Below, piece by piece: positions 5,369-23,583 of a stretch of 64,000 nucleotides of DNA (within the stretch, counting starts at the first letter, position 1; every line of letters starts with the position of its first letter). The DNA lies in assembly GCA_029263415.1 (NCBI GenBank), contig JAJCXN010000009.1, forward strand, positions 124,001 through 188,000, in the 5' to 3' direction. Source of the stretch: Acidobacteriota bacterium. Its GTDB lineage: Bacteria > Acidobacteriota > Thermoanaerobaculia > Multivoradales > Multivoraceae. A program made the translations under genes and the position numbers. The notes beneath the pieces were generated by a model. That model was not told the DNA's origin, searched no databases, and saw nothing but the letters and a program-made list of their open reading frames with translations.

Positions 5369-7207
5369 GTGCTCGAGCAGGTCAAGGAACGAATTCGGGA
5401 GTTGCCGGATGCTCCCGGTATCTACATGTTTGTCGATGCTGGCCGCAAGCCGCTCTACGTTGGCAAGGCGAAGTCGCTTCGCAAACGTGTGGTCTCCTAC
5501 CAGAATGTCACTGGCGATGCCCGACTGAGTGCGATGACCTCAGAGGCCGTGGATCTTGAGTTCGTGGTCACCGGTTCCGAGGCAGAGGCGCTTCAACTCG
5601 AGAATACCTGGATCAAGAGCCGACAACCGCCCTACAACATTCGCCTTCGCGACGATAAGACGTACCCCTACCTGAAGTTGACACTCAAGGAGCGTTATCC
5701 GAGGATCGTGTTTACTCGGCACTTGCGCAACGACGGGGCGGAGTACTTCGGACCGTACTTCCCAGGTGGTTTGGCGCGGCGGGCGATCAAACTGGTACAG
5801 AAGCTCTTTCAGGTCCGGGTGTGCCACATTCCGATCGATGGGAAACTCCCGCGACCATGCCTCTACCACGACATGAAGCGGTGCTTGGGCCCCTGCGTGG
5901 ATGGGTTGACCGACTCGGATAGCTATACCGAGGCAGTCAATGAGGCGCGCCAGTTCTTAGCTGGTCGCACGGATCCGTTGGTGCAGTCCTTGAAGGCCAA
6001 GATGACGGCCGCTTCGAGCAATCAAGACTTCGAAGAAGCCGGGCGGATGCGGGACCTTCTTGCAGAGATTGAGACGATTAGTGCGAAGCGCAGAATCACT
6101 CGTGATCACGCTGATGACGTCGATATCTTTGGGGTGCATGTCGCGTCCAAACACGCGGCGGTGACTCAGCTCCTGGTCCGCAACGGTCAGCTCATCGACC
6201 GACGCGATCTGTTTTTTGAGGATCTTGGTCCGGTTCCCCCAGAACGGCTGCTCGCCGAACTCCTTCCACAGATCTATGATCGAACGACCTTTGTACCGCG
6301 CGAGCTGCACCTACCGGTACCGATTGAAGAAGATTCCGCGCTGCTGGCATGGATGGGCGAGAAACGCGGCGCCACGGTCACCCTCCGGTTGCCGTCAAGG
6401 GGTCCAAAAGCCAAGCGGATCGCAATGGCAATGGAGAATGCTCGCCAGGCCTTTCGCCGCCGGTTCAGATTGTCGCCCGAGCTTTTGGCTGGTGCTGAGC
6501 GCTTGAGCGAAGCTCTGCGGTTGCCCGAGACGCCGCGGCGCATCGAGGGCTTCGATATTTCGAATTTTCAAGGTGCCTACACCGTCGGCTCGATGGTCGT
6601 TTGGATCGACGGCAAGATGAGCAAGCGCGACTACCGGTCGTTCAACATTCGAGGTCTGAGTCAACCGGATGACTTCTTCTCGATCCACCAAGCAGTGGAG
6701 CGGCGATACCGGCGACAACTCGAGGAAGGGCATGAGCTGCCCGACTTGATTCTGATCGATGGCGGCAAAGGTCAGTTGAGCGCCGCACTGGAAGCCCTAG
6801 CGACTGTCGGGCTGGATGAAATTCCTATCGTCGGACTGGCCAAGCGGGAGGAGGAGTTGTTCTTGCCTCACGAGCAGGACCCGGTGTTGCTAGATCGGCA
6901 CGACGCGGGGCTTCGAGTACTCCAGCAGGTCCGGGACGAGGCTCATCGGTTCGCGGTATCAAGGCACCGCGCCAGGCGGAGCAAGGGCTCGTTGCGCAGT
7001 CAGTTCGATGACTTGGTAGGGATCGGCGAGCAGCGACGCAAGCGCTTGGTGCGGCGATTCGGGAGCTTCAAGGGAGTACGCTTGGCTTCGTTGCTTGAGC
7101 TTCAGGATGCGCTCGGAGAACGCCTGGGCCAGAGTGTCCACCAGCAACTTCACGGCACATCGCCTGAAGGGCAGGGCGCTTCGTTCGAGGCGAGGGTAGA
7201 CTGCTAA
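5369..7207 (+). CDS. uvrC: Excinuclease ABC subunit C
   Basis: Dual-incision nuclease of nucleotide excision repair. The 612-residue protein starts at GTG. The N-terminal GIY-YIG domain (about 10-90) shows PGIYMF and YVGKAKSLRKR for the 3' incision. A UVR motif (about 200-235) binds UvrB. The central RNase H-like domain shows GFDISNFQG and LILIDGGKGQLSAAL for the 5' incision. A C-terminal helix-hairpin-helix region lies at about 545-590. A short Gln/Gly-rich tail ends the protein. It is 41 nt downstream of uvrB. The next gene starts 2 nt after its stop, and a TAGACT box lies within its last codons. Confidence 0.98.
   Translation: MLEQVKERIRELPDAPGIYMFVDAGRKPLYVGKAKSLRKRVVSYQNVTGDARLSAMTSEAVDLEFVVTGSEAEALQLENTWIKSRQPPYNIRLRDDKTYPYLKLTLKERYPRIVFTRHLRNDGAEYFGPYFPGGLARRAIKLVQKLFQVRVCHIPIDGKLPRPCLYHDMKRCLGPCVDGLTDSDSYTEAVNEARQFLAGRTDPLVQSLKAKMTAASSNQDFEEAGRMRDLLAEIETISAKRRITRDHADDVDIFGVHVASKHAAVTQLLVRNGQLIDRRDLFFEDLGPVPPERLLAELLPQIYDRTTFVPRELHLPVPIEEDSALLAWMGEKRGATVTLRLPSRGPKAKRIAMAMENARQAFRRRFRLSPELLAGAERLSEALRLPETPRRIEGFDISNFQGAYTVGSMVVWIDGKMSKRDYRSFNIRGLSQPDDFFSIHQAVERRYRRQLEEGHELPDLILIDGGKGQLSAALEALATVGLDEIPIVGLAKREEELFLPHEQDPVLLDRHDAGLRVLQQVRDEAHRFAVSRHRARRSKGSLRSQFDDLVGIGEQRRKRLVRRFGSFKGVRLASLLELQDALGERLGQSVHQQLHGTSPEGQGASFEARVDC
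7197..7202 (+). promoter_or_regulatory. TAGACT -10-like box before the DUF4388 gene
   Basis: TAGACT in the context GGGTAGACTG lies 7 nt before the ATG at 7210, inside the 3' end of uvrC. There is no Shine-Dalgarno sequence, so a transcript from here would be leaderless. The same GGTAGACTG string recurs at 23861 and 24945, also upstream of genes. No -35 is recognisable. Confidence 0.35.
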
Positions 7208-10406: not shown

Positions 10407-11195
10407 ATGAGCAAACCAGTATTCAAAACCGGCCAAGGCGGGGCCAAGCGCCCACCTTCCTTCGAGTGCACATACCAGGCCGGGGACTACATGTTCCGTG
10501 AGGGCGACCTCGGCACCGAGATGTACATCATCCAGACTGGCACTGTAGAGATTGTCAAGGACCTCGAAAACGGACCGACCGTGCTCGCTACGCTAGAGAA
10601 GGGCGACTTCTTCGGCGAGATGGCTCTGCTCGAGGACCTTCCGCGCAGCGCAGCGGCTAGAGCAGCGTGCGAAACGAGATTGCTTCAGTTCAATGGCTCG
10701 ACCTTCGACCAGATGTTGCGCTCGAATCCCGAGATTGCGGTACGGATGATGCGCAAGCTGTCTCATCGACTCCGGCGGACGGACGATCTGCTCAAGCAGT
10801 TGAGCCTTCGTCTCAGTCATGGCGCGCTCGAGGCCGCGGCGCCCGACACGGGACCGGCGCCGATCATGGAGTCGTCTGAAAGATTTGTTCATGCCGATAC
10901 CGAGATTGAGTTTCCGGTGTCGTCGAGTTCGGAAACTCTGATCGGTCGACGGGACGCGGTAACGGGAATCAACCCGGGTGTCGACCTGACGGATGTGGAT
11001 ACGCAACGCTCGACCAGTCGGCGCCATGCAAAGTTGTTTCGGCGCGGCGACAAGTTCTTCATTACCGAGGAGATCGGTGTCACCAACGGCACTTTCGTGG
11101 GTGGCGATCGGCTTGAGACCGGGGTTCCGGGTGAGGTCGAGGTTGGCCAGGACGTCCAGTTCGGCCTAGTGAAGATGCGCTTCGTTCGCGACTAG
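10407..11195 (+). CDS. Cyclic nucleotide-binding / FHA domain protein
   Basis: Signalling protein of 262 residues combining two ligand-reading domains. Residues about 20-130 form a CRP-type cyclic nucleotide-binding domain with FREGDLGTEMYII and a phosphate-binding cassette GEMALLEDLPRSAAA, which keeps the Glu and Arg-Ser used for cNMP contact. Residues about 170-260 form an FHA phosphothreonine-binding domain with LIGR, SRRHAKL and GVTNGTFVGG. There is no helix-turn-helix, so it is not a CRP-type transcription factor. It likely links a cyclic nucleotide signal to a phosphorylated partner. The stop codon shares one base with the GTG start of recG (TAGTG), so the two are translationally coupled. 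No kinase for the FHA ligand lies beside it. Confidence 0.88.
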   Translation: MSKPVFKTGQGGAKRPPSFECTYQAGDYMFREGDLGTEMYIIQTGTVEIVKDLENGPTVLATLEKGDFFGEMALLEDLPRSAAARAACETRLLQFNGSTFDQMLRSNPEIAVRMMRKLSHRLRRTDDLLKQLSLRLSHGALEAAAPDTGPAPIMESSERFVHADTEIEFPVSSSSETLIGRRDAVTGINPGVDLTDVDTQRSTSRRHAKLFRRGDKFFITEEIGVTNGTFVGGDRLETGVPGEVEVGQDVQFGLVKMRFVRD

Positions 11196-16854: not shown

Positions 16855-17547
16855 ATGAAGGGTAGTTCCAAGATGCTAGTGGCCATCGATGGACCCTCTG
16901 GGGTCGGCAAGAGCACCGCGGCTCGCCGCGTCGCTGAGTTGCTCGAGATTCCCTATCTCGATACGGGAGCGATGTATCGTTGCTTGGCTCTGCACGCCGA
17001 TCGAAGCAATCGAGCGCATGATGTTTCGGAGGAGACTGTTTCGCAGCTGCTCCAAGGCTTGCAACTCGACCTTCAATTTGAGGGTGGCAAGGCGTGGTTA
17101 CGACTGGATGGTGAGGACGTCGATCGAGAAATCCGCACTCCGCGGATCAGCGAGATCACTTCCCGTTTCGCCGCTCACGCGACGGTTCGCAAGTCAATGG
17201 TGGCGCGACAGCAAAGATTCGGAGCACTGTATGGCGGGGTGGTGGAAGGGCGGGATATCGGCACAGTGGTCTTTCCCCATACGCCGTACAAGTTCTTTCT
17301 GCAAGCAAGTATCGAGGTGCGAGCTATGCGGCGCTACTTGGAGCTAAAGGAACGGCACCCAGAGTTGACCCTTGATGAGGTGACATCGAGCATCGCGCAG
17401 CGCGATCAACGGGACTCGGATCGTGCTGCGTCGCCACTGGAAAGGACGCCAGAGCACGTGTTGGTTGACACCGGATCCGCTGATGCAGAGACGGTCGCCC
17501 GTCGCATTGTTGATTTCGTCGGGACCGCTTCCGTTACAGTCCGTTGA
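16855..17547 (+). CDS. cmk: Cytidylate kinase
   Basis: Phosphorylates CMP and dCMP with ATP. The 230-residue protein has the P-loop GPSGVGKST near its N-terminus. The CMP-binding motif LDTGAMYR follows, then the VVEGRDIGTVVFP signature and the lid arginines in SSIAQRDQRDSDRAASPL. Length matches Cmk (about 225). Start choices are the ATGs at 16855 and 16873; both are compatible with the P-loop. The stop is followed after one nucleotide by the ATG of the FHA/AAA+ regulator, which suggests coupling. Confidence 0.97.
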   Translation: MKGSSKMLVAIDGPSGVGKSTAARRVAELLEIPYLDTGAMYRCLALHADRSNRAHDVSEETVSQLLQGLQLDLQFEGGKAWLRLDGEDVDREIRTPRISEITSRFAAHATVRKSMVARQQRFGALYGGVVEGRDIGTVVFPHTPYKFFLQASIEVRAMRRYLELKERHPELTLDEVTSSIAQRDQRDSDRAASPLERTPEHVLVDTGSADAETVARRIVDFVGTASVTVR

Positions 17548-17548
17548 G

Positions 17549-19396
17549 ATGCTGCGACTGGTCGCCTACGCTCCCAACGGCGCGCTGAGATTTCCCCTCG
17601 GCGCTGGCAAGCTGCTGCTTGGCAGTGGTGGGCAGTGTGATATTCGCTTGAACGTTGAGGGCGTGTTGCCAGCTCACGCCGTTCTCCAGCGCATTGGGTC
17701 TTCGGTCCAAGTTCAGGTAAGCGAGCCGGGAACCGCTGAGTTCAACGGAAGTGCTCAAGATTCGGGTGTTCTGGAGCTGCTCGACGAACTGAAGGTCGGC
17801 GAGGTTACCCTTGTTCTAGAAGAGACTGACGACCGCCCGCTGAGCAAGCTGGCCACCGAGACCCGCTCGCAAGATAGGCGCGCAGGCACGAACGATCAGG
17901 AGGCCCGAGTGCGCTTTCCAGAGCACTCAGAAGCCGCGATATCGGTCGCCCGGAAACGGTTGCTCGAGCACCTGTCGAGTCTGAGCTCCTGGGTCTTGAA
18001 CGATGCGGCGAGCGATCAGAGTCTCGAATCTGTCTTGGCGGAATTGATCGAAGATTTCGGCGGCGGCGCGGTCTTCCTGTTTGATGGGCTGCCGATCGCA
18101 GATCCAGCTTTGAAGTTAGTGGTCACGAAAGATGAGCTTTGGTTGCAGCAAGCTGAGGTCGTACTCTCGGCCTGTCGCGAACAAGCTCATCTAGGCCCGG
18201 GCCGGACCCTCGGGCAGTTCAATGCCGAAATTGATGGGCGGTCTTGGCTGGTTTGCTACCGTTCCGCTCGCGCAATGGACCGGGACTACTTTGGTGCGAT
18301 CATCGTGCCTCGTTTGTCATTTGACAACTGGAAGCCGGAGCTGGGCTTCGCGACGGTCACCGACTTGATCGTGCTTGGGCTGGTTCACCACGTCGGTCGT
18401 TATGAACCGATTCTTCCGGGACGCGGTGAACAACGCGAGCTGACCCTCACTCCGGGCCTGGTGGTGGGGCCATCGCCGAAGATGAAGGTGCTGCTAGAGC
18501 GCATGCAGATGGTGGCTGATTCGCGAAGTAACGTTGCGGTACTCGGGGAGCGGGGTACGGGTCGAGAGTTGATCGCCCGATCGCTGCACGGCTCTGGTCC
18601 CGCACGGCACGGCCCCTTCGTCATGCTGGACTGCGACGGGGCGACGACTGAGCAACTGGCCGCGGACATGTTTGGTGCCGAGATTATGGGCAAGACGGGG
18701 CCCGTTCGGCGCGAAGGGAAGGCTCAGCTCGCTGCTGATGGGACCCTGTTTCTGCGCAACGTCGAACTGCTGCCGCTCGTGTTGCAAGGCCAGTTGATGA
18801 GAGTATTGCGCACCGGTGTGGTGAATGGTCCGGGCGCTACAGAGCAGAGAGATATCCGATTTCGGGTGATTGCTGCCAGCGATCAATCACTGGCTCGGAC
18901 GATGTACGAGGATCGGTTTCGAGTAGACCTAGGTACCGCGTTGTGCGAGTTTCTGATCGAAGTCCCTGCCCTGAGGGAACGTTCCGAGGACCTACCATTG
19001 TTGCTGCAAACAATGGTCAATCGCTTCTCCCATGAGACCGGGAAGCGGGTCAGAGGCATCACCACGCGCACGCTGCAAGCGTTGAGCACGTACCAGTTTC
19101 CTGGAAACCTCCATGAACTCGAGAATACAGTTCGCCAAATGATCTTCTTGGCCCGAGATGAGTCGCCTCTAGATATCGACCTGCTACCGCAGCAGATCAA
19201 GAGTGCGAGCGGGCCTGGTGCGGTGCGCCGGTCAGTTCAGGAAGCGGGCTCGCTTGCACAGTCTGTCGCACGCGTCGAACGGCAGGCGATCTGGGAGGCA
19301 CTTGAGCAAAGCCGAGGCAACAAGTCGAAGGCGGCACGCATGCTGGGTCTATCTAGGAACGGATTGGCCCAAAAGATTCGGCGTTACCAGTTGTGA
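17549..19396 (+). CDS. FHA domain / degenerate sigma-54 AAA+ / Fis-HTH regulator
   Basis: Transcription regulator of 615 residues. An N-terminal FHA-like domain (about 1-95) has LLLGSGGQCDIRL, though the usual serine-arginine pair is weak. A GAF-like region (about 130-285) follows, then a sigma-54-activator AAA+ domain (about 303-545) and a Fis-type HTH (about 570-615, GNKSKAARMLGLSRNGLAQKI). The AAA+ domain lacks the motifs for ATP use: Walker A is GERGTGRE, with Arg339 replacing Lys; Walker B is GTLFLRN, with Arg403-Asn404 replacing Asp-Glu; and the GAFTGA loop is MGKTGP (380-385). The VPALRERSEDLPLL and PGNLHELEN elements persist. It probably binds DNA without remodelling sigma-54. Its start is 1 nt after cmk and its stop overlaps the kinase GTG by 4 nt. 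Confidence 0.87.
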   Translation: MLRLVAYAPNGALRFPLGAGKLLLGSGGQCDIRLNVEGVLPAHAVLQRIGSSVQVQVSEPGTAEFNGSAQDSGVLELLDELKVGEVTLVLEETDDRPLSKLATETRSQDRRAGTNDQEARVRFPEHSEAAISVARKRLLEHLSSLSSWVLNDAASDQSLESVLAELIEDFGGGAVFLFDGLPIADPALKLVVTKDELWLQQAEVVLSACREQAHLGPGRTLGQFNAEIDGRSWLVCYRSARAMDRDYFGAIIVPRLSFDNWKPELGFATVTDLIVLGLVHHVGRYEPILPGRGEQRELTLTPGLVVGPSPKMKVLLERMQMVADSRSNVAVLGERGTGRELIARSLHGSGPARHGPFVMLDCDGATTEQLAADMFGAEIMGKTGPVRREGKAQLAADGTLFLRNVELLPLVLQGQLMRVLRTGVVNGPGATEQRDIRFRVIAASDQSLARTMYEDRFRVDLGTALCEFLIEVPALRERSEDLPLLLQTMVNRFSHETGKRVRGITTRTLQALSTYQFPGNLHELENTVRQMIFLARDESPLDIDLLPQQIKSASGPGAVRRSVQEAGSLAQSVARVERQAIWEALEQSRGNKSKAARMLGLSRNGLAQKIRRYQL

Positions 19397-22300
19397 AGGG
19401 GCCAGCGGCTTTCTGGCCGGCGGCGGTATTGGCCAGTATTGCCTCGATAGCAGCACTGCTGCTGTCAGGCGTTGCCTCGCCACTGGTCGAAGGGACGGGC
19501 TCGAGGTTGTTGGGCTGCGGTCTTCTTGCTGGAATGGGGGGCCTGTCACTGTTGTGGGCGACTCCGAGAGTGCGTGGCCTGAAGTGGTTCCTTGTTGCAC
19601 TGACTATTGGCTTGCTGGCTGCCTTGTGGGTCCTAGAGGACTGGTCGCAAGATGGTCGACCGGCGTTGCTTCAGAGCCGCTTTGAACAGGCGCTCCACCT
19701 CCTGCGTCTACAAGCCGACGAGGTGGCTGAGCGGCTCACCGAGGCGCACACTCAAGATGATCGAGATGCAGGAGGCGCGGTTGGTGATTCGACTGATCTC
19801 GATCTCTTTCGGTTGGCCTCAGAGGCGATCGCCGCGAGCACCGGGCCGGCAGATTCGCTGTTTATCGTTGATGTCGATGGCGTAGCTGAAGCTTGGGCAG
19901 GGTCTGGGCTTCGCCATACTCTGCCGGAATCGGATCTTCCGCAGAGCGGTTCGTTTTCCCTCTCCAGTTTTACCGCGACTACCTTGGGGCACGTCGCGGT
20001 GATTCGAGGGGACCCGCAAGGGAGGCGAGTCGTAGTGGGTGCTAGCTATTCATCGTTGCGCTTGCCCGTGTTCCTTGAGTCTCCGTGGTGGGCGTTGGAA
20101 ACTGATCGGAACGGGCGAACGAGAGGTCATGGACGGGTCTGGTCGGCGGCGGCATCGGGCCCCACTAGTGCCGTCTCGACGGGCGATCTGGAGTTGGTGG
20201 TGCAGCCTTCTGCGTTGGTGGGTCGGCCACCTGGACTAGTTGCGATCGGGGTGTTGGTGTTGCTGCTGGTGCTGGTCGTTGATGTTGTTGCAGGTCAGAT
20301 AGCAGCCGGCTCAGTGCCCCCTACGAAGCTTGTGGCTAGAGTAGTGTTCTTCGCCGCAGTCTCGGCTACGGTCGCTGGGTTGCTTGATCTGCTTGCATTC
20401 AAGGTCGCGTTGGGCCTACTGCTGTTGGTGGTGGTCGCCGGAGTGGCGAGCGCCCTTGCGTATCGCTCGCCGCCGGTCGCGTTACGGGTCGGAGGTGCCG
20501 TTGGGCTCCTGGGAGCTACGGCCTGTCTGGTTACTTGGCTCGGGTCGGACCTGCTTCGCGAAGGCGCCGGTCTGGAACTCAACGGTCTTGTGTTGCGCTT
20601 GAGTGTTGAACCGGCGGTGCTGATTGCTGGTTTGCTAAGCGCCCTCGCGGCGGTGGCAGTACTGGTCTGCTGGAGCGGCGAGTACGAAAGAGTCCAGGTG
20701 CCTTCGCGCCCACTCATAGCAAGTGCTGCGGGGCTGCTGTTGCTAGCGCACGCTCCGATTCCGCAGGTCCCGGCGCTGGCAGCTGGCTGTCTCGCCGGCG
20801 GGCTACTGGTCGCGGTCTCTTGGAAGCGGGAGTTGCGCAGTCAGGTCACGTTAGGCGTCGCGGGGCTGTTGATCGCTGCCAGCTTTTGGACGGTCGTCTC
20901 GAACGAGACCGCGGTGAGACAACTCGGAGCCGCCGCTGACCCGACGCTGTCGAGCTTCAGTTCACATGGTCGGCAAATGCAGCGCGATCAGGTGGCGGTG
21001 TTCTTCGAGAGTTTGGACATCCATCGGTTGACGCTCGGGCTGGAGCCTGCTCGCAGTCATGCAGACGACCTTTCCTTGTTACTTTGGATGGCATCCCCGC
21101 TGAGTCAGACCAGCGGGCCGTCCGCGTTGCGCCTAACCCAAGCCGGGGCCAGCCAGTTCTTCGGAGTTGGGCTGAAGGAGCAGGAGTCCGGTGAAGTGAC
21201 TTCGCACGCCGCCAACCCGGAGCGCCTCAGACGCTGGTCCCAGTCTGCGATGGTCAGCGGTTCGGTCGATTCAGGAGCGGGCTGGCTGGTGGAGTTCTTT
21301 GTAATGCCGACACCTCAGTTCGGTGGCGAAGAGCAGGTGACGGAATCCGACCTCGCGCGTCGCTTTCTCCTGGGCGAGTCGTTCTCTTCGGCCCAGTGGA
21401 GCACAGATTTGGCGATGGTTGCAGGGCCGTGGGAGGGGGAGGCGGGCATTGTTCTTGGCGATTCGCAGCGTATCCGCGAACTCGAGGACTCGAATGGGCG
21501 ATCTCCTGCGAACGTAGATGGTGGCGCTGCGGACCCGGTGGTCTTTCGCGAGCAGTGGTTTGAAGAGAGCCTCACACTCGTCCGTACCTATCTTCCGCAG
21601 CGACCCTGGTTCGAATCGTTGCTGCGTACTGCAATCCAAGTTAGCGCACATCTTGTGCTCGCGGCCGTGGTGTTGGCGCTGTTGGCTCTGGTGTTGGTTG
21701 GTGCCGCGCGTCGTGAGTCCCAGTTTTTGGGATCATTCTCGAGGCGATTGGTTCTGGCGTTTGCACTACTTGCGTCGATTCCTATCGTCTTACTTTCGGT
21801 CCTCTTGCTGCGTTCTTTCTCGGATCGTTTGCAGTTCGATCAGCAGTTGGACGGGGAAGCGGCGTTGAGCTCAGCCGAGCGAATGGTCGGCGATTACTTG
21901 TCCTCACTGGAGCCTGGATTCAGCGTGACCACGGTCTTAGACGATGAACTGCTGAGTTGGATCAGCTTGATCGTCGGACACGAAGTCAATCTCTACTGGC
22001 GGGGCAGCGTCTTGACCTCGAGTCGGCCCGAACTCTTTTCTTCCGGCTTGTTGCCTAGCCAGATTCCAGGCGAGGTCTTTTCAGCGCTGGCACTCGAGGG
22101 CAGGGAGGTTGCGGCACGGATGAACGACAGCAAGAGTTCGAATCGCTACCTTGAGCTGTATCAACAGGTCGATCTACCGAACTCCGGCCGCTCGGGCCTT
22201 TTTGTGTCGGTGCCGCTGTTGGCGCAACAGATTGAAACGACCTTCACGTTGCGTCGGCTGCTCAATCAAGCCCTAGTGCTGGCAACCGTATTGACCCTCC

Positions 22301-23583
22301 TGTTGATCGCAGTGGCGGTGCGCTTTGCCGAGGGCTTGACCAAGCCGATTACCGCAATCGTGGCCGGAACCCAGCGGATTGCAGCAGGTGAGGAGGCTTT
22401 GGGGCTGACGCCACGGATCCCTGAACTGCGAATCCTGGCCGATGCCATCGACGACATGGCGGGCAAGATCGCGTCGGGGCGAGAGCGCCTCGTGCGCGAA
22501 AAGCAGGTAGTTGACACCGTGATCGCGAACATCAAGTCAGCGGTGGTCTCCTTCGGAGAGAACGAGCGGGTGATCATGACCAACCGCGAGGCCGCGGACC
22601 TGCTGGGTGTGCGGCCAGGAGATTCATTGGAACAACTCACCGGTCGAATCGAATCGGAAGAATTGGCAAAAGCCGTAGGGTCACGGCCGGCGATCGCAGA
22701 GCGAACCAGTATCCGCGTGGATCGTGCTGGCCGAGGAGCCGAAGAGTGGACCGTTCAATGGCTGCCGATCGCAGGAATTGGCGATCCTGCAGCGTTGCTG
22801 GTAGTGGAGGATGTCACCGAGGTCCTTCGAGCTCAGCGGCTGGCGGCGTGGGCGGAGATGGCGAGGATCATCGCTCACGAAGTCAAGAACCCGCTGACGC
22901 CGATTACCCTGTCCGCTGACCATCTGCGCCGGGTCTATCAATCCACCCCGGAACGTCTGGATGACGTCTTTGAGCGTTGTATCGATAACATTTTGGCGCA
23001 GGTTGACGAGCTTCGACTGATCGCTGAGGAGTTCTCGACCTACTCACGCATTCCGACCTCGAACAAGACGAGGGGTGACTTGGGCTCTACGGTCCGGGAG
23101 GTGGTGAACTCATACCGTTCAGGTACATCCGATGATTTGGTCTTCTCAGCTCAGATCAGCGAGCAAGAGTTCAACTGTGAGCATGATCGCCGTCTCATTG
23201 GTCGGGTGCTCAGAAATCTCTACGAGAACGCGATCCGTGCTTGCGAGGGTGTTGGTCGAGTCCATCTGGATATGCATGTTGAAGCGGCGCTAGGCGTTGC
23301 TGGTAAGACGGCGAAGGCAGAGGATCGGGTCGTTGCGCTGAGCGTGCGCGACAGCGGCCCAGGGGTCGCGCCGTCCGATCTGCACCGGATCTTCGAACCC
23401 ACATTCTCAGCCTCGACCGGTGGTACTGGACTGGGTCTCCCGATTGCGAAGAGCATCATTGAGGATCACGGTGGGACCATCACCGCCGCCAATAGCCGGA
23501 GTTCGGCATTGGACCCAAGCGCTCAACAAGATCAGGAACTCGCCGGCCTCGTCGTTTCGATACGATTGCCTTTTGATGCTTAG
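19393..23583 (+). CDS. Large NtrY-like sensor histidine kinase
   Basis: Membrane sensor kinase of 1396 residues. The N-terminal half has two hydrophobic helices (about 5-75), an extracytoplasmic stretch (about 80-280), a bundle of some eight helices (about 280-510) and a second extracytoplasmic region. More helices near 745-810, another periplasmic region and a helix near 960 precede HAMP (about 975-1030). A PAS-like domain follows (about 1035-1145), then HisKA with the phospho-accepting His1162 in IIAHEVKNPLTPI. The ATPase domain has an N box (NLYENAIRA) and G boxes (DSGPGVAP, GGTGLGLPIAK). The back half matches NtrY. NtrY is usually 700-800 residues, so the membrane front end is an addition. 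GTG start, coupled to the FHA/AAA+ gene. No receiver-domain gene is nearby. Confidence 0.9.
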   Translation: MKGPAAFWPAAVLASIASIAALLLSGVASPLVEGTGSRLLGCGLLAGMGGLSLLWATPRVRGLKWFLVALTIGLLAALWVLEDWSQDGRPALLQSRFEQALHLLRLQADEVAERLTEAHTQDDRDAGGAVGDSTDLDLFRLASEAIAASTGPADSLFIVDVDGVAEAWAGSGLRHTLPESDLPQSGSFSLSSFTATTLGHVAVIRGDPQGRRVVVGASYSSLRLPVFLESPWWALETDRNGRTRGHGRVWSAAASGPTSAVSTGDLELVVQPSALVGRPPGLVAIGVLVLLLVLVVDVVAGQIAAGSVPPTKLVARVVFFAAVSATVAGLLDLLAFKVALGLLLLVVVAGVASALAYRSPPVALRVGGAVGLLGATACLVTWLGSDLLREGAGLELNGLVLRLSVEPAVLIAGLLSALAAVAVLVCWSGEYERVQVPSRPLIASAAGLLLLAHAPIPQVPALAAGCLAGGLLVAVSWKRELRSQVTLGVAGLLIAASFWTVVSNETAVRQLGAAADPTLSSFSSHGRQMQRDQVAVFFESLDIHRLTLGLEPARSHADDLSLLLWMASPLSQTSGPSALRLTQAGASQFFGVGLKEQESGEVTSHAANPERLRRWSQSAMVSGSVDSGAGWLVEFFVMPTPQFGGEEQVTESDLARRFLLGESFSSAQWSTDLAMVAGPWEGEAGIVLGDSQRIRELEDSNGRSPANVDGGAADPVVFREQWFEESLTLVRTYLPQRPWFESLLRTAIQVSAHLVLAAVVLALLALVLVGAARRESQFLGSFSRRLVLAFALLASIPIVLLSVLLLRSFSDRLQFDQQLDGEAALSSAERMVGDYLSSLEPGFSVTTVLDDELLSWISLIVGHEVNLYWRGSVLTSSRPELFSSGLLPSQIPGEVFSALALEGREVAARMNDSKSSNRYLELYQQVDLPNSGRSGLFVSVPLLAQQIETTFTLRRLLNQALVLATVLTLLLIAVAVRFAEGLTKPITAIVAGTQRIAAGEEALGLTPRIPELRILADAIDDMAGKIASGRERLVREKQVVDTVIANIKSAVVSFGENERVIMTNREAADLLGVRPGDSLEQLTGRIESEELAKAVGSRPAIAERTSIRVDRAGRGAEEWTVQWLPIAGIGDPAALLVVEDVTEVLRAQRLAAWAEMARIIAHEVKNPLTPITLSADHLRRVYQSTPERLDDVFERCIDNILAQVDELRLIAEEFSTYSRIPTSNKTRGDLGSTVREVVNSYRSGTSDDLVFSAQISEQEFNCEHDRRLIGRVLRNLYENAIRACEGVGRVHLDMHVEAALGVAGKTAKAEDRVVALSVRDSGPGVAPSDLHRIFEPTFSASTGGTGLGLPIAKSIIEDHGGTITAANSRSSALDPSAQQDQELAGLVVSIRLPFDA

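Follow-up and report, generated by a model that had tools for sequence, protein, structure and literature searches.

EBPd, a maintained enhancer-binding protein family of Acidobacteriota with loss of the sigma-54 contact loop and predicted loss of ATPase activity

The window (the 64,000-nucleotide stretch of acidobacterial DNA analysed here) encodes a 615 amino acid protein that is, by descent, a sigma-54 enhancer-binding protein (bEBP), with the AAA+, lid and Fis-type helix-turn-helix (HTH) regions all present according to Pfam, Foldseek and a phylogenetic tree. We use the name EBPd, coined here, for this protein and its clade. Judged from sequence, the family is small and evolutionarily maintained, having lost its ATPase and contact loop and kept its DNA-binding end and overall fold. 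Lacking both loop and hydrolysis, EBPd is predicted by known rules to be a protein that cannot activate sigma-54 polymerase; since the HTH and the scaffold are kept, the best reading is that it is probably a DNA-binding regulator that descends from an FHA-type enhancer-binding protein, works independently of sigma-54 and has been maintained.

The EBPd gene and its parts

The EBPd gene follows cmk, and its stop overlaps the start of a gene for an NtrY-like sensor kinase by four bases (GTGA). The relevant features of the window are these:

16855..17547, + strand: cmk (cytidylate kinase), directly upstream of EBPd
17549..19396, + strand: whole EBPd gene, 615 amino acids, FHA-like, GAF-like, degenerate sigma-54-type AAA+ and Fis HTH (open frame, translation, Pfam)
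17549..17830, + strand: FHA-fold domain, residues ~1-94 (Pfam Yop-YscD_cpl, Foldseek, residue table)
17930..18397, + strand: middle sensory-like domain, residues ~128-283, alpha/beta, GAF-compatible (AlphaFold2 secondary structure; no Pfam match)
18545..18568, + strand: broken Walker A GERGTGRE, residues 333-340, Lys replaced by Arg339
18629..18631, + strand: glutamate-switch Asn replaced by Asp361
18686..18703, + strand: MGKTGP, residues 380-385, in place of the GAFTGA loop
18740..18760, + strand: broken Walker B GTLFLRN, residues 398-404, Asp-Glu replaced by Arg403-Asn404
18878..18883, + strand: sensor I pair replaced by Ser444-Asp445
18938..18940, + strand: second arginine finger replaced by Ala464 (first finger, Arg458, retained)
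19112..19114, + strand: sensor II Arg replaced by His522
19265..19387, + strand: Fis-type HTH_8 containing GNKSKAARMLGLSRNGLAQKIRR (Pfam 4e-14; near invariant in the clade)
19393..23583, + strand: NtrY-like membrane sensor histidine kinase, 1396 amino acids (Pfam; synteny in relatives)

Four Pfam families match the protein: Sigma54_activat (E 3e-32), AAA_lid_14 (3e-19), HTH_8 (4e-14) and Yop-YscD_cpl (5e-8). Positions 18461-19192 comprise the AAA+ core and lid (residues ~305-548), with the HTH just outside. A receiver domain with a phospho-acceptor Asp, the feature of NtrC/NtrX response regulators, was sought with Pfam and none was found in EBPd.

The first-pass annotation had described the protein as having lost three motifs, and the open frame and translation bear this out, residue numbers and coordinates included: Walker A Lys is Arg339 (codon CGA), Walker B Asp-Glu is Arg403-Asn404 (CGC AAC) and MGKTGP stands at the loop. 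Aligning EBPd to ZraR (PDB 1ojl) placed further losses that had gone unmentioned, at the glutamate switch (Asp361), sensor I (Ser444-Asp445), the second arginine finger (Ala464) and sensor II (His522). The features of a functional sigma-54 activator (GAFTGA, the Walker Lys and Asp-Glu, glutamate switch, sensors and second finger) are all replaced in the window's protein. Sequencing error is an unlikely source of the losses because the frame is open, because the change from DE to RN requires several base changes and because the two nearest relatives carry other losses at the broken sites (H and RR in L022; R and VG in L037).

The same genome encodes a second degenerate bEBP, a 318-residue frame (L015; G000:C44:160196-160675, - strand) with GEAGTGRT, LLLDR and an altered sensor I but with GAFTGA preserved, so that its losses are the reverse of those in EBPd.

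Distribution and pattern of loss

Searching 60 related genomes at the protein level returned full-length EBPd matches at 42-47% identity, clearly separate from a general bEBP background of ~32-40% identity covering the AAA+ and HTH part only. A profile search detected the family in 21 of the 149 class genomes, every one of them from the window's own order, with the 20 relatives spread over several families of that order; a profile search of 396 genomes sampled across the phylum again confined it there. Scanning contigs with the single EBPd protein gave no match and scanning with an alignment gave 18 members. Records that carry a name are MAGs of Acidobacteriota; several of them bear the label Thermoanaerobaculia and one the label Holophagales. 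An EBPd gene is also found on a contig labelled Leptolyngbyaceae cyanobacterium (L086), which is most likely a misbinned acidobacterial contig.

GAFTGA, the sensor I pair and the glutamate-switch Asn are missing from all 21 members. The loop is replaced in most by a conserved clade motif, LFGAE[IV]xG[KR]xxPVRREG, to which MGKTGP belongs. Walker A Lys is present in 13, with the preceding Gly changed to Ser in seven of these, leaving an intact GK P-loop in six; Walker B DE is retained in three members and sensor II Arg in two, both from the window's family. The second arginine finger is lost in six, and the first (Arg458) is invariant in all 20 readable sequences, as very nearly is the Fis-type HTH across the clade. 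Canonical and FHA-type paralogues from the same genome and order retain nearly all of the residues listed above. Relatives keeping the three motifs would have counted against the first-pass annotation, and here the outcome is mixed: two of them (L024 and L025) keep both Walker motifs, and GAFTGA is kept in none. That the losses are private to the window's genome is rejected, the same sites being eroded across the clade. Retention of both Walker motifs in two members might be taken to mean that EBPd is still a working ATPase with unusual motifs, but the glutamate switch and sensor I are missing in every member, and the Walker residues in most, making this very improbable.

Evolution and selection

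In a maximum-likelihood tree, EBPd forms a single clade (support 100/100) nested among FHA-type bEBPs, most of which have G[VA]ATGV loops; within it, the window's family splits from all others. Counting losses over this tree and 100 bootstrap trees gave one to two for the loop, two to three for Walker A Lys, and at least three changes each for Walker B Asp and the second finger. Within the family, mean entropy is 1.92 in eight ATP-related columns and 0.50 in 55 other columns that are equally conserved in paralogues (permutation p 5e-5, which is indicative, as the sequences are related). dN/dS is 0.03-0.22 for the whole gene and 0.02-0.18 for the AAA+ core, from five pairs of which some have dS near saturation. 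That the non-ATP residues stay conserved and dN/dS is this low indicates that EBPd is a maintained protein; together, the column entropies and dN/dS show that ATP use was released from selection and the protein kept.

These results bear directly on whether EBPd is instead a decaying pseudogene or a sequencing artefact. One genus of the window's family does lack the gene (see below), but full-length open frames occur in ~17 genomes, independent genomes carry different losses, and the near-invariant HTH and the low dN/dS in the main refute decay, so that we regard this explanation as hardly tenable.

N-terminal domains and predicted structure

The N-terminus of the AlphaFold2 model has an FHA fold, with Foldseek matches to GarA, OdhI and YscD, and the first 50 Foldseek hits for the model are FHA-type matches. 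Behind it, the middle domain shows a GAF-compatible order of elements. The FHA plus GAF-like front proposed in the first-pass annotation thus stands as regards the FHA fold; the GAF part goes unrecognised by Pfam in 16 members and is compatible by predicted fold only.

In FHA domains, Arg, Ser and Asn residues hold the phosphothreonine. No member of the 16 full-length EBPd proteins keeps any of these three, although the pocket His is kept in 15. All the pocket residues are retained in the FHA-SpoIIE phosphatases found beside EBPd in relatives, and Ser, His and Asn in the four sister FHA-type bEBPs checked (L013, L014, L041 and L043). The earlier proposal makes EBPd a repressor or scaffold that is controlled when its FHA domain binds a partner phosphorylated on threonine. 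This proposal draws on the presence of the fold, and FHA-GAF-SpoIIE phosphatases do lie directly upstream in some genomes of family f6. The proposal fares badly against the pocket losses, however, and YscD, a secretion-system protein with an FHA fold, is among the Foldseek matches as well; we consider it distinctly improbable. FleQ-type c-di-GMP binding was also considered and set aside, the FleQ LFRS stretch aligning to LTPG in EBPd. A few genes upstream, at 10407-11195, the window encodes a cNMP-binding and FHA protein whose FHA domain (IGRR...TSRRH...TNGT) looks by eye to have an intact phosphothreonine pocket.

The AAA+ fold is predicted to be intact, with TM ~0.9 to the AAA domains of FleQ and LuxO. 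Might EBPd then be a non-catalytic subunit of mixed rings with an intact FHA-type bEBP paralogue (such as L013 or L014 of the window's genome), tuning or blocking the paralogue's sigma-54 activity by supplying an arginine finger in trans with no ATP site of its own? Besides the predicted fold, the invariance of Arg458 where cis ATP-site residues are lost is consistent with this, as is the branching of the clade from paralogues with intact Walker motifs. Against it, the second finger is lost in six members, Arg458 may be structural, no paralogue gene lies beside EBPd and a pure inhibitor would not need a private HTH. We judge mixed rings improbable, and it is equally improbable that EBPd is a pseudo-ATPase regulator of bEBP rings, gating sigma-54 promoters under the control of the co-encoded kinase.

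Genomic context and the sensor kinase

The NtrY-like kinase adjoins or lies near EBPd in 13 of 15 long EBPd loci, an association kept across families; in the remaining two it was not seen within the stretch covered. It starts -11 to +43 bases from the EBPd stop in eight loci and beyond a gap of 1.7-3 kb in five more, a gap that in all four loci read carries what we take, from its sequence rather than from a family search, to be the urocanase gene hutU. Upstream neighbours vary: cmk in the window's family, to which this placement is local (L051 has the same gene order), divergent hemE in many genomes, the FHA-GAF-SpoIIE phosphatase in some f6 genomes and hutH in one. A search of the hemE-EBPd intergenic stretch for a conserved palindrome or sigma-54 promoter revealed no sigma-54-like site and no conserved operator; what is shared there is hemE coding sequence and -10-like bits only.

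The kinase is commoner than EBPd, occurring in 84 of 148 genomes of the class. In one genus of the window's family (L151, at 7180-7189, L152 and L158), cmk runs straight into a shorter kinase of ~1155 residues and EBPd is absent, a junction that reads as a clean deletion and implies that EBPd can be dispensed with in genomes that still require the kinase. Behind hutU is also where the kinase lies in families f2, f3 and f9 (hutH-hutU in L147) with no EBPd beside it; a sister orthologue with intact motifs was sought beside the kinase in families lacking EBPd, and no EBPd-like gene is present there.

Two further observations concern this locus. The NtrY-like kinase is linked to histidine-utilisation genes (hutU and sometimes hutH) in several families (L061, L052, L055, L056, L147, L149 and L150), with EBPd placed between hutH and hutU in L061. 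In most relatives, a gene for a lipoprotein-like protein of ~500 residues with no Pfam match lies 3' of the kinase (L065:14856-16400, with matching genes in L052, L055, L056, L058-L061, L064, L066 and L067); a REC-bearing partner regulator had been considered for this position and was rejected, the ~500-residue gene being lipoprotein-like and not a regulator.

Comparison with known systems

GAFTGA-less derivatives of bEBPs are already known. VpsR of Vibrio cholerae (PDB 7v2b) matches EBPd by sequence (E 8e-27) and by fold and, like EBPd, is bEBP-derived, without GAFTGA and with AAA+ and Fis HTH regions. It has been reported to be active at sigma-70 promoters without need for ATP (PMC10274813). 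VpsR differs in its receiver-type N-terminus and c-di-GMP control, whereas EBPd begins with FHA-like and GAF-like domains, has lost ATPase residues widely and shares an operon with an NtrY-like kinase. GAFTGA is also absent from NtrC of Rhodobacter capsulatus and Caulobacter and from Caulobacter NtrX, and the two NtrC proteins work at sigma-70 promoters (PMC10274813). These NtrC proteins have a receiver domain, however, and depend on Walker A/B (Caulobacter) or on ATP binding (R. capsulatus), whereas the window's protein lacks a receiver and has both Walker motifs broken.

TyrR, DhaR, HupR and YplP are likewise bEBP paralogues with a defective GAFTGA, although they were not recovered as near relatives. 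We know of no FHA-like domain in any of the four. TyrR, DhaR and HupR have been shown to be sigma-70 dependent, and the same is inferred for YplP (PMC3162934). The nearest branches to EBPd in the tree are FHA-type bEBPs that the same genomes encode (L013, L014, L041, L043, L104 and L105), the first four of which share its FHA domain; unlike EBPd, these paralogues keep nearly all ATPase residues, with a loop that is mostly G[VA]ATGV. By its sequence, EBPd shares the trait of VpsR, TyrR and R. capsulatus NtrC, that of a lost GAFTGA with the DNA-binding domain kept, and the best reading of EBPd is in line with these sigma-70-acting proteins (PMC3162934, PMC10274813).

R. capsulatus NtrC, which is reported to need ATP binding and not hydrolysis (PMC10274813), also suggests that EBPd might be a nucleotide-binding, non-hydrolysing switch whose oligomeric state is set by ATP or another nucleotide. 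The six intact P-loops and the two members with both Walker motifs fit such a switch. Lys, Walker B, the glutamate switch and sensor I are nevertheless lost in the window's protein and its family, sensor II is lost as well in the window's protein, and the ATP-site columns drift freely, so that we think this explanation unlikely.

In the open-licence literature searched, no clade was found that has undergone stepwise erosion of its Walker motifs, sensors, glutamate switch and FHA pocket, is encoded with an NtrY-like kinase and lacks a receiver domain.

A model for EBPd

The regulator without sigma-54 activation envisaged in the first-pass annotation agrees with the absence of GAFTGA from all members, the selective erosion of ATPase residues and the nearly invariant HTH. 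An ancestor in this acidobacterial order lost the GAFTGA loop together with the residues that sense ATP, those of the glutamate switch and sensor I, after which the P-loop, Walker B, second finger and sensor II were eroded separately by family, with the fold scaffold and HTH under purifying selection throughout. The AAA+ domain may now hold oligomers together without hydrolysing ATP, positioning the Fis-type HTH at sigma-70-type promoters, at which EBPd could repress or help to activate. Its input would most likely come from the co-encoded NtrY-like kinase, by contact, or from the GAF-like domain, and probably not from an FHA domain that binds phosphothreonine. Counting against this model, the window's genome encodes RpoN, so sigma-54 is available; the Walker motifs of L024 and L025 are intact, so some members of the clade may still bind nucleotide; and Pfam does not confirm the GAF-like domain.

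In some 20 genomes, profile searches label EBPd a sigma-54 activator, which known rules exclude. The clade offers an ordered series that starts with a functioning sigma-54 activator and ends with a putatively DNA-binding regulator whose ATPase is predicted to be dead, in which the loop and ATP-sensing residues were lost first and the Walker motifs later, in separate lineages, and of which intermediates (L024 and L025) persist. Such a series permits a direct test of what role an AAA+ domain plays once ATP is no longer burned.
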